A stretch of DNA of 64,000 nucleotides, from the NCBI GenBank assembly GCA_002841335.1, contig PHEY01000001.1, forward strand, positions 372,964-436,963, in the 5' to 3' direction. Origin of the DNA: Actinobacteria bacterium HGW-Actinobacteria-2. GTDB lineage: Bacteria; Actinomycetota; Actinomycetes; Propionibacteriales; Propionibacteriaceae. The translations under genes were made by a program, and so were the position numbers. Of the stretch, positions 30,994 through 37,894 are shown piece by piece. The notes beneath the pieces are model-generated. The model saw only the letters and a list, made by a program, of their open reading frames with translations, was not told where the DNA came from and searched no databases. Every line of letters starts with the position of its first letter. Within the stretch, counting starts at the first letter, position 1.

Positions 30994-31089
30994 TTACCGC
31001 CGTCCGGCCGGGTCTTCCGGTTCAGCCACGATGATCCTCACCGCCTCGGTCGCCCCCAGGCGACCGAGCACCGGAATCGCTGCGATCAA
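30994..31089 (-). CDS. Possible 31-residue small protein coupled to trpS
   Basis: A TTG at 31087-31089 overlaps the trpS TGA (TTGA) and opens a 31-codon frame that ends in TAA shortly before the bidirectional terminator. The predicted peptide begins with a hydrophobic IAAIPVLGRLG part and ends in VAEPEDPAGRR. It has no independent ribosome binding site, so translation would rely on coupling to trpS. I do not recognise it, and it may be chance. Confidence 0.25.
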   Translation of the reverse strand: MIAAIPVLGRLGATEAVRIIVAEPEDPAGRR

Positions 31090-32213
31090 TAGACCATGTT
31101 CATGGCTTGGCGCACCTCGGCCAAGGTCGCATCGCCGACCTCGTTGGCGTGGGCGTTGCCGGCTCGCAGCACCTCAAGCAGATAGCCCGGGTCGGCGGCC
31201 AACGCCACCCGGCGGGCGCGGATCGGTGCAAAGAACTCATTGACCGCCTCGGTCACCACGGCCTTCAAGGTGCCACCACCACCGTCACCGATGCGCTCTG
31301 CGATCGCCACCGGGTCCTCGCCGGTGCACAGGGAGGCCAACATCAGCAGGTTGGACACTTCCGGTCGGGTGGCCGGATCGTAGGTGATGTGCCGATCGGA
31401 GTCGGTCACCGCCTTCTTGATCAGCTTCGCCGTGGTGTCGGCGTCCATGCCGATCTCGATCACATTGCCCTTGGACTTGCTCATCTTGGTGCCGTCCAGC
31501 CCCAACACCGTGGACGCCTTGCTGAGCAGCGCCTCGGCCTGCGGGAAGATCGGACGGCTCGGATCGACCCGGCCATAGCGCTCGTCGAAGCGGCGGGCCA
31601 CCACGCGGGTCTGCTCCAGGTGGGGCAACTGATCCTTGCCCACCGGCACCAGATTCGCCTTGCAGAACAGGATGTCGGCGGCCTGGTGCACCGGATAGGT
31701 GAGTAGCAGCCCCGACATCGGACGATCGCCGGTGGCTTCCAGTTCGGCCTTCACCGTCGGGTTGCGACGCAGTTCGGCGTCGGTGACCAGCGACAGGAAC
31801 GGCAGCAGCAACTGGTTCAGCGCCGGCACCGCGGAGTGGGCGTAGATGGTGGTGCGGCTCGGGTCCAGGCCGATGGCGAGGTAGTCGGCCATCATGCTCA
31901 GCACCCGCTCGGGGATCGGTCCGGTGCCGTCACGGTCGGTGATCACCTGGTAGTCGGCGACCAGGATGAACGTCTCCACGCCGGCGTCCTGGATGCGCAC
32001 CCGGTTGGCCAGCGAGCCGAAATAGTGGCCGATGTGCAGGTTGCCGGTCGGACGGTCGCCGGTCATCACCCGGAAGCCCGAGGGGTCCTTGGCAATCTGG
32101 GCCTCGATTTCGACGCTGCGAGCCTCGGTGCGGCGCAGTGACGCCTCCGACGTCGACTGGGCGAGGTCGTCGCCGGAATCGTCGCTCGCCGCGGGACGTG
32201 GCTGTTCGGACAT
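31086..32213 (-). CDS. trpS: Tryptophan--tRNA ligase (TrpS)
   Basis: Class I aminoacyl-tRNA synthetase that charges tRNA-Trp. The 375-residue protein has the HIGH-type motif in TGNLHIGHYFGS (about 57-68) and KMSKSKGN near 242-249, both required for ATP use. Compared with bacterial TrpS it carries about 45 extra N-terminal residues that are acidic and probably unstructured (DDSGDDLAQ). The ATG follows GAGGAG by about six bases. Upstream lies a full transcription attenuator with a leader peptide containing two adjacent Trp codons, so expression should rise when charged tRNA-Trp is scarce. Downstream is a strong bidirectional terminator. Confidence 0.95.
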   Translation of the reverse strand: MSEQPRPAASDDSGDDLAQSTSEASLRRTEARSVEIEAQIAKDPSGFRVMTGDRPTGNLHIGHYFGSLANRVRIQDAGVETFILVADYQVITDRDGTGPIPERVLSMMADYLAIGLDPSRTTIYAHSAVPALNQLLLPFLSLVTDAELRRNPTVKAELEATGDRPMSGLLLTYPVHQAADILFCKANLVPVGKDQLPHLEQTRVVARRFDERYGRVDPSRPIFPQAEALLSKASTVLGLDGTKMSKSKGNVIEIGMDADTTAKLIKKAVTDSDRHITYDPATRPEVSNLLMLASLCTGEDPVAIAERIGDGGGGTLKAVVTEAVNEFFAPIRARRVALAADPGYLLEVLRAGNAHANEVGDATLAEVRQAMNMVY

Positions 32214-32250
32214 CAGTTCTCCTCAGATCGTGGCGCCCGGATCAGACATG

Positions 32251-32315
32251 CAAAACGGCCGCCGGATTCGGACGGCCGTAGGCATGGGTCATAGCGTCGG
32301 CCGTGATTACGACCG
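32251..32315 (-). terminator. Tryptophan attenuator of trpS (alternative hairpins and terminator)
   Basis: Reading the minus strand, four segments can pair in alternative ways. Segment 1 CGGTCGT (32315-32309) pairs with segment 2 ACGGCCG (32304-32298) across loop AATC with one G-U pair. Segment 2 can instead pair with CGGCCGT of segment 3 (32278-32272). Segment 3 ACGGCCG (32279-32273) can pair with segment 4 CGGCCGT (32261-32255), extended by an inner CCG/CGG and followed by TTTT, a rho-independent terminator. A ribosome stalled at the two Trp codons would cover segment 1 and so favour the 2-3 antiterminator. This is classical trp-type attenuation logic. Confidence 0.85.
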
Positions 32316-32339
32316 CCACCAGCAGACCCGGTTTTGCAC
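32307..32339 (-). CDS. trpS leader peptide with two adjacent Trp codons
   Basis: A ten-residue peptide, GTG start and TAA stop, with sequence MQNRVCWWRS. TGG-TGG lies at 32321-32316, directly before attenuator segment 1, whose bases are the codons after the Trp pair and the first base of the stop codon. There is no ribosome binding site; the GTG lies exactly six bases after a TAGATT -10 box, so the mRNA is predicted to begin with the start codon. Position, Trp content and link to the downstream hairpins all support a real leader peptide. Confidence 0.82.
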   Translation of the reverse strand: MQNRVCWWRS

Positions 32340-32345
32340 GCGATA

Positions 32346-32351
32346 AATCTA
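32346..32351 (-). promoter_or_regulatory. -10 box TAGATT of the trpS attenuator transcript
   Basis: TAGATT on the minus strand matches TANNNT at positions -12 to -7 relative to the leader-peptide GTG, which would be base +1 of a leaderless mRNA. The first three bases are also the TAG stop codon of the upstream PHP gene, so trpS can be transcribed from its own promoter behind the GDH-PHP unit. No -35 consensus is visible. Confidence 0.6.
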
Positions 32352-33200
32352 CAGCACTCCGCCGCGCGCCTGGACGCGCCGCTCCAGTTCGGCCAAAGCC
32401 TCCGGCGCAGTGGTGTTGCAGCCCAGCGGGTGATCGATCTTGCCCACGCCGTGGTAGTCGGAGGATCCGGTCACCACCGCACCGGTGAAAGCCGCCAGCG
32501 CGCGCAGTTCGTCCCGCGTGGCCGGATCGTGGTCCTGGTGGTCGATTTCGAACCCGTCCAGCTGTCGGGAGGCCACCAGTGCCCCCAGGTAGCGCGGCGG
32601 CAGGCTGTCGCGACTGATTCGTCCCCACGGGTGGGCGATCACGGCCGCACCCCCGGCGGCACGCACCAGGTCAAGGCCGTGCTCCAGCGGCGTGGAGTAG
32701 CGCGACACGTAAATTGGCTTGCCATCGGCGAGCCACTTGTCGAAGGCCTCGCGTCGGTCGGTCACGTAGCCCAGTTCGACCATGGCGTCGGCGAAGTGCG
32801 GACGGCCCACCGACGGGCTGTCGCCGACGTGCCGGGCGAGCACGTCTTCGGGAATCGGCATGCCGTGCTCGGCCAGCCGAGCCAGCATGGTCGGTACCCG
32901 CTCGCTGCGTCCGGCCCGGTTTCGGGCCAGCTCGGCAGCCAATGCCGCATCATCGAGACGGCAGCCGTAGGCCAGCAGGTGGACCGAGTTGCCCCGCACC
33001 TGGCAGGAAACCTCGATCCCTCGGAGCACCCGGACGCCGGCGGCCTCGCCGGCTGCCAGTGCAGCGTCCCAGCCGTCGGTGGCATCGTGATCGCACAGTC
33101 CGATCACGTCCACGCCCGCCGCGGCCGCCTCGGCCACGAGCTGGGCAGGGGAATCTGTACCGTCCGACACCGTGGTGTGGACGTGCAGGTCGATCTTCAT
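32349..33200 (-). CDS. PHP-domain phosphoesterase
   Basis: A 283-residue metal-dependent phosphoesterase of the PHP family. Metal ligand motifs are HVHT at the N-terminus (MKIDLHVHTTVSDGT), GLCDHDATDGW near 36, a RGIEVSC segment, AVIAHPWG near 190 and SSDYHG near 250. This size and motif set fit the group that includes nucleoside 3',5'-bisphosphate phosphatase / RNase AM (YciV-type). The ATG of MKIDLHVH overlaps the GDH stop by four bases, so the protein is probably translated from the GDH message. The substrate cannot be read from sequence. Confidence 0.85.
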   Translation of the reverse strand: MKIDLHVHTTVSDGTDSPAQLVAEAAAAGVDVIGLCDHDATDGWDAALAAGEAAGVRVLRGIEVSCQVRGNSVHLLAYGCRLDDAALAAELARNRAGRSERVPTMLARLAEHGMPIPEDVLARHVGDSPSVGRPHFADAMVELGYVTDRREAFDKWLADGKPIYVSRYSTPLEHGLDLVRAAGGAAVIAHPWGRISRDSLPPRYLGALVASRQLDGFEIDHQDHDPATRDELRALAAFTGAVVTGSSDYHGVGKIDHPLGCNTTAPEALAELERRVQARGGVL

Positions 33201-36200
33201 TCGCTCAGCATCGCTCTCAGTTGGCTCAGCCCGACGTTCATCTTTGCCACGTCGGGGGTGCCGTCGCATACCTGGCGAATCGTCGACACCCTGGCCGCCA
33301 TGGAAGGGTGCGTCGACACCCAAGACGCCACGACCGTCCCCGCCATGGCGTGCGTATCAGCACTGGCGAGTACCTTAGCGGTCAATTCGGTGTGTGCCGA
33401 GAGCAGTTCGTCTCGCAACGCCGCCCGGGCCATCGCATCCCAGCGCACTTGGCGCGGCAGGCCGTCGACTCCGCCGAACAGCAGATCCAGCCCCAGGGCG
33501 TCGCCCAGACGGTAATGAACCTCGGCCACTCGGACCACCGGCTGCTTCAGCCGGTGTGCCACTTCGACCACGCTGAGCAGCGTATGGGCTTGTCCAGACG
33601 TACTCAGGTTCTCGGCGAGTTCCAGCGGGACGCCTGCGTCGATCCAACCGCGGGCGTGCGCGACCCGAGCATGGGCATCAGCACCGCCCAGCAGACTGGC
33701 CAACAACGGACGCAGTTCAGCCACATCCGGGGCGTACTCGGCCACCGCTGCGGCCACATCCAACGGCGCCTGCTCGTGGTGCAGCAGCCAGCGAGTGCCC
33801 CGCTCGACCATCCGCAGCAGTGCCACCCGCAGCTCGGTGGCCAGTTCGGCCGACAGCTCGCTGCGACGCAGCCGCACCTCGTCCAGACCGACGTTGAAGA
33901 TGGCCCGGGAGGCCAGCTGGGCGCGAATGATGTCGGCCACTCCCGCACCGGTCTCGCTGGAGAGCCGGTGGTAGGCGGTGATGCCTTGGGAGTTCACGAA
34001 GCGGTTGACCGCCACCGTGGTGATGATCTCCCGGCCCAGTCGGTGACCCGGGATGATGTCGGCGAACTTCTCCCGCAACGGTTCAGGGAAGTACTGCATG
34101 AGCCGGTCGGCCAGGTAGGGATCCTCGGGCAGGTCGGTGGCCAGCACCCACTGCTTGAGGGCGATCTTGGTGTAGGCCAGCAGCGTCGACAGCTCCGGAC
34201 GGGTCAGCATGGCGCCGCTGGCGATCCTGGCCACCATTTCCTCGCTGCTGGGCAGGTACTCCAGTCGACGGTCGAGAATGCCGGCACTGACCAGGGTGCT
34301 CATCCACGACTCCAACTGCCCCATCAGCCGCTCGGAGCGCAGCTCGGAGTTCGACAGAGCCAGGTTCTGGTCCAGATTGTGCGCCAACACCAGCTGGGCC
34401 ACTTCGTCGGTCATCGAGGCCAGCAGCTCGTCCCGCTCGGGCACGGTGAGCTGACCGGAGGCGACTGGCCCGCTGAGCAGGATCTTGATGTTCACCTCGT
34501 GGTCGGAGGTGTCCACCCCGGCGGAGTTGTCGATGAAGTCGGTGTTGATCCGGCCGCCGGTGCGGGCGTACTCCACCCGTCCCAGCTGGGTGCAGCCCAG
34601 GTTGCCGCCCTCGGCCACGCACCGGGCGCGCAACCGACCGCCGTCCACCCGGACGGCGTCGTTGGCCTTGTCGCCGACCATCGCATGGGTTTCGGTGACC
34701 GCCTTCACGTAGGTGCCGACAGCGCCGTTGAAGACCAGGTCGACCGGCGCGGTCAGGATCGCCGAGATCAGCTCGTTGGGCCGCAGGCTGGTCACCGCGT
34801 CGGCCAGCCCGAGGGCGGCGCGCACCTCGGCCGAGATCGGAATCGACTTGGCGTCCCGGCTGTAAACCCCACCACCGGCCGAGATCGGCTGGTAGTCGGC
34901 CCAGGTGGACCCTGGCAGGGCGAACAGCCGCTGCCGCTCGGCGTACGACAAGGCCGCGTCCGGATCGGGGTCGAGGAAGATGTGCAGGTGGTTGAACGCC
35001 GCCACCAGCTTGATCTTGTCCGAGCAGAGCATCCCGTTGCCGAAGACGTCGCCGGCCATGTCGCCGATGCCCACACAGGTGAACTCGTCGACGGCCGGGT
35101 CGAGACCCATCTCGGCGAAGTGTCGCTTCACCGACTCCCAGGCGCCGCGGGCGGTGATGCCCATGGCCTTGTGGTCGTAGCCGGACGAGCCGCCTGAGGC
35201 GAAGGCGTCACCGAGCCAGTAGCCGCGTTTCACCGAGATCTCGTTGGCCAGATCGGAGAAGGTCGCGGTGCCCTTGTCGGCGGCCACCACCAGATACGGA
35301 TCGTCGCCGTCGTAGCGCAGCACGTCGGCCGGAGGCACCACGGCACCGTCCACGATGTTGTCGGTCACGCTCAGCAGAGCGTCGACGAACAGCTTGTAGC
35401 AGGCCACCCCTTCGGCTTGGCGCGCGGCGCGATCCATCGAGCCCGACAGGCGCAGCGGCACGAAGCCGCCCTTGGCGCCGACAGGAACGATCACCGTGTT
35501 CTTCACCATCTGCGCCTTGACCAGGCCCAACACCTCGGTGCGGAAGTCCTCCAGACGGTCCGACCAACGCAGACCACCGCGCGCCACCGCGCCGAAGCGC
35601 AGATGGACGCCCAGTACCCGCGGGGAGTAGGTGAAGATCTCGAACGCCGGCCGTGGCTGAGGCAACAACTCCAGCTCCGCCGGACGCAGCTTGATCGCCA
35701 GCACCGGGTTGCCAGTGAACGCGTTGGTGCGAACGCAGGCCTTGATCACCGCTCCCATGGCCCGCAGGATGCGGTCCTGGTCGAGGCTGGCCACCGCATC
35801 GAGGTGGCCGTCCAGTCGGGCGAAGACCGCCTCCAGGGCGGCCGCCCGCTCCTGCTCGTCACTGAACGCGGCCGGATCGAACTTGGTCTCGAACGCGGCC
35901 ACCAGCTCCGCCGCAATATGGGGGTTGGCGTTCACCGCCGCCGACATGTACGTCTGGCTGAACGGCACACCGGCCTGCTGCAAGTAGCGCAGGATCGTAC
36001 GCAGATAGGTGACCTGCTGCCAGGTCAGTCCCGCGGGCACCACCAGCTTGTTCAACTGGCCGGGCTCGCAGCGTCGGTTCCAAGAGGCGTCGAAGGCGTC
36101 AGCGAAGCGCTGTCGCGCCTCGGCGTCCCAGGTGGCGCCGGCCGGCAGCCGCAGGCCGAAGTCGTAGACCTGGACGCGCTGTCCGCGCAACTCCCAGATG

Positions 36201-37894
36201 TAGGGGTTCTCGTCGACCACTTCGGCACCCAGCACGCTCAGGTGGGGCATCACTTTGGCCAAGCTGATCTCGGCATGGGTGAACACCTTCAGCCGCAGAT
36301 CGGCCGGGTCTTCGGCGTCGGAGACGGTGGTCATCAGCAAGGCCAAGTCGTCCGAGCCGGTCAGATGATTGGCCCGCAACAGGTCAGCGACCGCCTCGGC
36401 CGGGCTGTAGTCGGCCTCGTAGGCGCCGTCGAACTCCACTCCCCTGGCCTCGCTGGGCAACACCGCGGCCAACTCCTGGAACTGGTCCTCCCAGCTCATC
36501 GCGGCCGCCTTCACCTCGGCGGTCAGCGCGTCCACGTCCGGGTCGGACGGCGCGTCGGCGCCGAGCCGGATCACGAAGAACAGCCGGGTCAACACCGACT
36601 CGCTGACCAGGGTGCGGTACTCGACTTCAGCCCCTCCCAGCCGGCTCATCAGGATCTCCTGGATGCGCAGCCGGGTGGCGGTGTCGTAGCGATCACGAGG
36701 AACGAAGACCAAGGCGGTGACAAAGCCGCCGTAGCGGCTGCGCCGCAGGAAGACCCGCACCTGGCGCCGCTCACGGATACCGGTGATCGCTCCGATGGTG
36801 TGAGACAACTCCTCCACACCGGCTTCGAACAGTTCGTCGCGGGGGTAGTTGGAGATGATCTGGCGCAGCGCGTTCCAACCGTAGGAATGCGGCTCGAAGC
36901 CGCTGATGGCCAGCAGCTCGGCGGTCTTGGCGGCCAGTACTGGGACGTTCTCGAGCGCGTCGTTGTAGGCGCTGGCCGCGAACAGACCCAGGAAGCGATG
37001 CTCGCCGATCAGGCTGCCGTCGGCGGCGAAGCGGCGCACCGACACATGGGTCAGGTAGGCGCGTCGATGCACCGGCGAGCGCCGCCGGTCTCGCACCAGC
37101 ACCAGCGGATCCCGCTCTCCGGGGACGGGCAGGTTGACCCGGTCGACTGCGGTCTCGCCGCGCAGGATGCCCAGCTGGCTGCCGTCGGTCGGGGTCAGTG
37201 CGGTGGTGTCTCCGGTGTAGTGGCCGTAGCCGACGAACACGAAGTGGCCATCGGCCATCCAGTTCAACAGCTGGACGGCCTCATGGGTGCCCGGATCGCC
37301 CTGCAGCTCAGCCGCCGCCTCGCGGCAGCGGTCCAGCATCGGCAGCCAGTCGGCCACGGTCACCGCAACGGTCGAGAGAGCCCGCCGCAGGCCGTCCAGC
37401 AGCTCCCCGCCGAGTTCCTCGGCCGAGTGCCCCAGGGGCGGGTACATCTCCAGCACGATCCACGCCTCGGCGTCCTCGCCGCCGCTCAGGCTGAGCAGGG
37501 TGCCGTCAGCGTCACGGCGCACCGCCGACGTGGGGTGGAACAGGCCGCGGAGGCTCCAGTCCTGGCTGGTCAGCTCCATGATCGCGGTGTCGACCAGGAA
37601 GGGCTGATCGTCGGTGACCACCAGTACCAAGGCCGACCCGCGGGCATCCCACTCCTGCGGGGTGAAGAGCCGCAAGGCCGGTTCACCGCGCCGTCGAACC
37701 GCACCCAGTTCCAGGTGTGCTGCCGCAGTGGCAGCCACCGAACCCGGGTCCAGGTCGGACAGCTCGGTGTCGGGGATCTGCGCCACATAGGCGTGGATCA
37801 ACTCCGATTGGTCGTTGGTGGTGTTCTGGGTGGCCTGCGCCAGAAGCGCCTTCCGCAGGCCGGACGATGCCCGCGACGCCATTGTGGACAACAC
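33197..37894 (-). CDS. gdh: Giant NAD-specific glutamate dehydrogenase
   Basis: A 1565-residue NAD-dependent glutamate dehydrogenase of the 180-kDa class, which converts glutamate to 2-oxoglutarate and ammonium. The dehydrogenase core is recognised by VHLRFGAVARGGLRWSDR, then VKAQMVKNTVIVPVGAKGGF (catalytic lysines), a TCVGIGDMAGDVFGNGML nucleotide-binding region and GANLGCTQ-like AEGGNLGCTQLGR. The long N-terminal part has ACT-like regulatory regions typical of the class. The start is uncertain: a TTG at 37892-37894 has AAGGAG five bases away, while an ATG four codons later has poorer spacing. In mycobacteria this enzyme is inhibited by GarA, a PknG substrate; a PknG-like operon lies 10 kb away. 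Confidence 0.93.
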   Translation of the reverse strand: MLSTMASRASSGLRKALLAQATQNTTNDQSELIHAYVAQIPDTELSDLDPGSVAATAAAHLELGAVRRRGEPALRLFTPQEWDARGSALVLVVTDDQPFLVDTAIMELTSQDWSLRGLFHPTSAVRRDADGTLLSLSGGEDAEAWIVLEMYPPLGHSAEELGGELLDGLRRALSTVAVTVADWLPMLDRCREAAAELQGDPGTHEAVQLLNWMADGHFVFVGYGHYTGDTTALTPTDGSQLGILRGETAVDRVNLPVPGERDPLVLVRDRRRSPVHRRAYLTHVSVRRFAADGSLIGEHRFLGLFAASAYNDALENVPVLAAKTAELLAISGFEPHSYGWNALRQIISNYPRDELFEAGVEELSHTIGAITGIRERRQVRVFLRRSRYGGFVTALVFVPRDRYDTATRLRIQEILMSRLGGAEVEYRTLVSESVLTRLFFVIRLGADAPSDPDVDALTAEVKAAAMSWEDQFQELAAVLPSEARGVEFDGAYEADYSPAEAVADLLRANHLTGSDDLALLMTTVSDAEDPADLRLKVFTHAEISLAKVMPHLSVLGAEVVDENPYIWELRGQRVQVYDFGLRLPAGATWDAEARQRFADAFDASWNRRCEPGQLNKLVVPAGLTWQQVTYLRTILRYLQQAGVPFSQTYMSAAVNANPHIAAELVAAFETKFDPAAFSDEQERAAALEAVFARLDGHLDAVASLDQDRILRAMGAVIKACVRTNAFTGNPVLAIKLRPAELELLPQPRPAFEIFTYSPRVLGVHLRFGAVARGGLRWSDRLEDFRTEVLGLVKAQMVKNTVIVPVGAKGGFVPLRLSGSMDRAARQAEGVACYKLFVDALLSVTDNIVDGAVVPPADVLRYDGDDPYLVVAADKGTATFSDLANEISVKRGYWLGDAFASGGSSGYDHKAMGITARGAWESVKRHFAEMGLDPAVDEFTCVGIGDMAGDVFGNGMLCSDKIKLVAAFNHLHIFLDPDPDAALSYAERQRLFALPGSTWADYQPISAGGGVYSRDAKSIPISAEVRAALGLADAVTSLRPNELISAILTAPVDLVFNGAVGTYVKAVTETHAMVGDKANDAVRVDGGRLRARCVAEGGNLGCTQLGRVEYARTGGRINTDFIDNSAGVDTSDHEVNIKILLSGPVASGQLTVPERDELLASMTDEVAQLVLAHNLDQNLALSNSELRSERLMGQLESWMSTLVSAGILDRRLEYLPSSEEMVARIASGAMLTRPELSTLLAYTKIALKQWVLATDLPEDPYLADRLMQYFPEPLREKFADIIPGHRLGREIITTVAVNRFVNSQGITAYHRLSSETGAGVADIIRAQLASRAIFNVGLDEVRLRRSELSAELATELRVALLRMVERGTRWLLHHEQAPLDVAAAVAEYAPDVAELRPLLASLLGGADAHARVAHARGWIDAGVPLELAENLSTSGQAHTLLSVVEVAHRLKQPVVRVAEVHYRLGDALGLDLLFGGVDGLPRQVRWDAMARAALRDELLSAHTELTAKVLASADTHAMAGTVVASWVSTHPSMAARVSTIRQVCDGTPDVAKMNVGLSQLRAMLSE

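Follow-up and report, generated by a model that had tools for sequence, protein, structure and literature searches.

The trp operon and pheST of E. coli are controlled by attenuators with a four-segment logic, pheST being the case on a synthetase gene, and the leaders of both have a Shine-Dalgarno site, in which they differ from the leader presented here. Vecchione and Sello (2010) reportedly described, to go by the title, ribosome-mediated transcriptional attenuation of an auxiliary tryptophanyl-tRNA synthetase (TrpRS) gene, which we take to be S. coelicolor trpRS1, and mycobacterial polycysteine leaderless short ORFs are said, in the title of Canestrari et al. from 2020, to be amino-acid-responsive attenuators. 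A leaderless Trp leader ahead of trpS is described from RNA-seq for S. lividans (trpL2-trpS, SLIV_21112/SLIV_21110) in passages of PMC8079986, and the passages of PMC1262725 on tryptophan include attenuators predicted before the trp operons of Corynebacterium and Streptomyces and before S. avermitilis trpS2. This kind of switch is thus already known, which weakens the view of the preliminary description that its use on a tRNA synthetase is less usual. Where it deals with tryptophan, PMC1262725 names no propionibacterium, and its passage on mycobacterial cys leaders states that no conserved terminator hairpin was seen; a search of the literature on trp attenuator leader peptides in Propionibacteri-, with most subscription journals outside its coverage, gave nothing beyond that paper.

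Here we examine the trpS locus within the window, that is, the whole 64-kb stretch of DNA that was analysed. We consider it highly likely that this gene is governed by a ribosome-mediated transcription attenuator, with a leader peptide read from a leaderless transcript. The features of the locus are:

32349-33200, minus strand: upstream PHP-domain gene (PF02811), start codon approximate
32346-32351, minus strand: -10-like box TAGATT, whose TAG doubles as the PHP gene's stop codon
32307-32339, minus strand: leader-peptide ORF, predicted to be leaderless, VQNRVCWWRS*, with the GTG start at 32339-32337
32309-32321, minus strand: segment 1, from the Trp codons through the stop, pairing with segment 2
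32292-32304, minus strand: segment 2, beginning with ACGGCCG, partner of segment 1 (default) or segment 3 (antiterminator)
32269-32279, minus strand: segment 3, ACGGCCGTCCG, forming the terminator's 5′ arm or pairing with segment 2
32252-32264, minus strand: segment 4 and TTTT run (3′ arm of the terminator 32264-32255, TTTT 32255-32252)
32218-32224, minus strand: Shine-Dalgarno-like GAGGAGA ahead of trpS, read from the sequence
31086-32213, minus strand: trpS, tryptophan--tRNA ligase, 375 aa (TIGR00233, PF00579)

TrpS scores 221.9 bits against TIGR00233 (cut-off 176.75), and the product of the PHP gene 179.5 bits against NF041577, under that model's cut-off of 400. Upstream of the PHP gene lies an ordinary gene for a large NAD-dependent glutamate dehydrogenase (33197-37894, minus strand). 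Reading the minus strand confirms the leader as first described, a GTG-started frame of 10 residues (GTG CAA AAC CGG GTC TGC TGG TGG CGG TCG TAA) with TGG-TGG at 32321-32316 and the TAA stop at 32309-32307, and with TAGATT (32351-32346) six bases ahead of the GTG at 32339. The overlap of this box with the TAG stop of the PHP gene, to which the preliminary description had also drawn attention, is real, and it looks incidental because only two of the seven leader-bearing trpS of the genus, those of the present genome and of G152, have it.

The observation of the leader is correct and lies well above chance. When we scanned for ATG or GTG frames of 6-20 aa that have a Trp beyond residue 3 and whose start lies 6-7 nt past the end of a TANNNT box, the leader was the sole match on both strands of the window, and 295,700 strand-bases of other DNA gave one frame with at least one Trp and none with at least two. 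A TrpS match was found in 191 of 198 genomes of the same family; 45 of these matches were omitted (partial match, distant match or location not listed) and 146 upstream regions (gathered as 30 + 116) were used, three of them shortened by contig ends (89, 231 and 306 bases). A Trp leader of 6-20 aa placed 6-7 nt after a TANNNT box occurs in 39 of the 146 regions, and one with at least two Trp in 31, compared with means of 0.30 and 0.00, respectively, in 50 rounds of dinucleotide shuffling (largest 2 and 0) and with one region in 146 for either kind of leader on the reverse strand. Widening the limit to 30 aa, for which the counts are without shuffle control, gives 45 regions, in 12 of the 22 sampled genera, and 37 regions with at least two Trp. 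For leaders with at least two Trp, 37 of the 38 TANNNT boxes counted in a scan that admitted distances of 0-8 nt lie 6 or 7 nt ahead of the start, and a 4-nt Shine-Dalgarno core is present in four of 37 such leaders, where it is at least partly the box itself. Box spacing and scarcity of Shine-Dalgarno cores are both what putative leaderless initiation predicts. From the box spacing we infer that RNA polymerase would start at the GTG or within about one base of it, and the ribosome would load on the 5′ start codon.

A different reading is that the frame is a short ORF that arose by chance next to the PHP gene's ordinary terminator, and that trpS is transcribed from another site. It is common for intergenic hairpins to be followed by T, and the majority of the sampled regions are without a leader (107 of the 146 family regions do not have the 6-20 aa leader, among them 15 of the 22 from the same genus, where seven have it), but leader, spacing, stems and their order are conserved in ten genera, and we give this explanation next to no credence.

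The minimum-energy fold of 32337-32214 consists of the 1:2 hairpin (32321-32292) and the 3:4 hairpin (32279-32255), with z = −2.21 and 4 of 200 shuffles as stable or better. The 3:4 terminator hairpin has an energy of −17.7 kcal/mol and is followed by the T-run. Segments 2 and 3 both start with ACGGCCG, which in segment 3 lies within a self-complementary octamer, and this allows a 7-bp 2:3 pairing that excludes both 1:2 and 3:4; fold and shared motif together bear out the earlier claim of three mutually exclusive pairings, the last followed by TTTT. Taking the GTG as +1, the Trp codons occupy +19 to +24 and the stop +31 to +33, while segment 2 begins at +36 and segment 3 at +61. A long-range pairing in the fold of this genome, between the 5′ end of the leader and the stretch after the terminator, was rejected as a general feature (mean of −9.3 kcal/mol with own partners and −9.5 kcal/mol with shuffled ones). 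A CATG(C/T)C(C/T)G-like stretch after the U-run (32243-32250, minus strand) recurs in several genera, and pairing with the 5′ end of the leader does not explain it.

Judged by these base counts, a ribosome of the usual footprint would cover segment 1 when stalled on Trp and segment 2 when at the stop. With ample charged tRNA-Trp the ribosome would reach the UAA and cover segment 2, 3:4 would form and transcription would stop at the U-run. With charged tRNA-Trp scarce, a presumed stall on TGG-TGG would cover segment 1 and leave 2:3 to pair, blocking the terminator and letting trpS be transcribed, a sign of the response that we infer. If the leader were not translated at all, 1:2 and 3:4 would both form and transcription would end. 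The Trp-containing leader very probably acts as a sensor that turns trpS on when tryptophan is in short supply.

In other phyla many aminoacyl-tRNA synthetase genes are under T-box control, and a T-box, a protein-bound leader or another known RNA element might be thought to govern trpS. However, the window has no Rfam match at or above the gathering score of its family, and the four matches obtained at lax limits in 32200-32400 (5.4-12.6 bits) are all far under their gathering scores. Such an element would moreover leave the conserved leader ORF unexplained, and we regard it as very improbable.

A terminator, defined as a hairpin of −14 kcal/mol or better with at least three T in the next five, was found in 28 of the 39 leader-bearing regions, this site included, vs 1 of 390 shuffles. 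The 11 regions without one by this criterion belong to genera g9 (seven), g2 (two), g19 (one) and g21 (one). This distribution bears on whether leader translation acts on trpS chiefly via translation or Rho, with the 3:4 hairpin terminating only weakly. The U-run here, of just four T, is in line with such a mode of action, as is genus g9, which has the leader, no U-run terminator and a hairpin over the ribosome-binding site. The recurrence of a hairpin and T-run in most leader-bearing regions speaks against it, as does the position of the Shine-Dalgarno-like stretch at this site, 27 nt past the T-run and outside the 3:4 hairpin, and we think it improbable as an account of this trpS.

For the transcription attenuator, the energies of the 2:3 duplex were taken in 30 of the 39 leader-bearing regions, three of which yielded no terminator; in the 27 where a terminator was found they range from −11.8 to −20.6 kcal/mol. 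Two alignments were made, A1 with 26 of the 39 regions (locus L022 and genera g9, g2 and g21 omitted) and A2 with 16, close relatives from genera g1 and g23, which also served for the pair counts and the covariance model. In A2 the 3:4 pairs are kept in 93.1% of cells (20-67% for slid partners), the 2:3 pairs in 88.4% (12-50%) and the 1:2 pairs, the least well kept of the three, in 71.4% (26-63%). Covariation in A2 is slight: no 2:3 pair is changed on both sides, a result reached by 500 of 500 column shuffles; 3:4 has one double-changed pair (reached by 462 of 500) and a covariation score reached by 19 of 500; and 1:2 has three double-changed pairs (reached by 11 of 500). The few compensatory changes reflect a core that hardly varies. 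Across genera the element persists with a changed sequence, as in g12, whose segments 2, 3 and 4 are by eye unlike those of the genus studied here, and when partners are swapped between genera the swapped partner pairs as well or better in 37% of cases for 2:3 and 18% for 3:4. The alignment of relatives that the preliminary description had named as a check thus upholds the conservation of Trp codons, stems and box-to-start spacing, and gives little of the covariation. The covariance model scores 90 bits at this trpS, itself among the 16 sequences, and its second-best site in the genome has 20.6 bits; across the genus, a score of at least 77 bits is reached in seven of 30 genomes, and the next match has 28.8 bits. 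The parts of the attenuator, their order and their conservation are evident at the level of sequence, which supports the original reading of the region as a trpS attenuator.

Not all members of the family carry the element in this form. Eight g9 loci (L097, L098, L099, L106, L109, L119, L136 and L148) have a Trp leader and no U-run terminator, together with a conserved hairpin CCTCG.../...CGAGG that overlaps the Shine-Dalgarno site of trpS (hairpins examined in eight of nine sequences, L106 partly). The g9 leader may have turned from a transcription to a translation switch, in which 2:3 would free segment 4, segment 4 would take 5, and 6 would be released, opening the hairpin over the Shine-Dalgarno site. 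In each of the eight sequences examined, 5:6 is stronger than the 4:5 pairing that this relay requires, and 12-40 of 200 shuffles do as well as the latter in seven sequences and 141 of 200 in L136; we hold the change of switch to be rather unlikely. If it were true, g9 and its relatives would hold both forms of one sensor within one family. In a further g9 locus (L137, genome G063) a Trp-less short ORF stands at the place of the leader, by eye perhaps a decayed leader. The leader-less locus L033 (G132, g23) has a TAGGCT box followed at once by an apparent 3′ arm of a terminator and a T-run, which by eye resembles a deletion that removed the leader along with segments 2-3. Among close relatives, seven g1 loci without attenuator (L011-L016 and L018) have an upstream region that is short and contains a TAAAGT or TAGAGT box some 40 nt ahead of the start of trpS, also by eye.

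A search of the present genome with the TrpS protein gave one match, the sole TrpRS found, and trpS is presumably essential since it looks like the only TrpRS gene. Two genes match PF00579, trpS and a better-scoring one elsewhere, which is taken to be a putative tyrS. The trpE gene (NF010086) directly follows a gene reading by eye as hisI, and trpB lies downstream of it at a distance of about 1.3 kb. A scan of 700 bases at trpE revealed no Trp leader; the three Trp-containing frames of 5-60 aa there have neither adjacent Trp codons nor a box. No convincing second Trp attenuator was found in the genome among the model hits, the chorismate-binding genes and trpE, a search that might overlook a leader differing from the model. 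The next-best model hits (20.6 and 17.7 bits) and three chorismate-binding genes have no Trp frame with a nearby box. Two Trp-Trp frames without a box were seen, the first 1.3 kb away from the 20.6-bit hit, the second on the opposite strand near an isochorismate-synthase-like gene. Elsewhere in the genus the model gave weak hits of 28.8 bits or less; of these, seven loci were scanned, and none had a leader at the hit. A loose pattern search was uninformative (99 matches vs 69 control matches).

The leader extends beyond the sampled family. In a wider survey of 80 named loci, some from the same family, with frames of 6-24 aa and a box 5-8 nt away, a Trp leader with box precedes trpS in 16 loci, including Georgenia sp. 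SYP-B2076, Ornithinimicrobium cavernae, Austwickia chelonae, Actinomadura hibisca and Streptomyces mesophilus. Propioniciclava flava and Micropruina glycogenica, both cultured relatives, also have the leader. The same scan found none before trpS in loci named Actinomyces, Schaalia, Trueperella and Arcanobacterium. Two TrpRS genes are present in each of the Streptomyces and Actinomadura genomes, and the leader precedes the one 65-68% identical to the present TrpS. The other TrpRS is 35-36% identical, and the present genome has the first type only.

Set against the known systems, the gene regulated here is the sole TrpRS found, whereas that of Vecchione and Sello is, by their title, auxiliary, and the amino acid sensed would be tryptophan, in contrast to the cysteine of the mycobacterial leaderless short ORFs in the title of Canestrari et al. 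As in the S. lividans trpL2-trpS described in passages of PMC8079986, where trpS is monocistronic, a Trp leader lies directly upstream of trpS and two hairpins are present; the S. lividans leader, MMTRTCTQLWRAA, however, has one Trp and no uridine-enriched stretch, whereas two Trp and TTTT are found here. The predicted attenuator of S. avermitilis trpS2 likewise stands before a TrpRS gene, but it belongs to a streptomycete, and a leaderless start goes unmentioned in the passage on it in PMC1262725. What the present analysis adds is the spread and patchiness of the element in the family, the finding of no Trp leader at trpE and the g9 version, without a U-run and with a hairpin over the ribosome-binding site. 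The patchy presence (12 of 22 genera; 7 of 22 regions of the same genus) offers a natural series on the gain and loss of such control. The locus joins the known systems as a clear and conserved example of amino-acid sensing via a predicted leaderless leader peptide, the target of which is the apparently sole TrpRS gene and not biosynthesis genes or an auxiliary copy.
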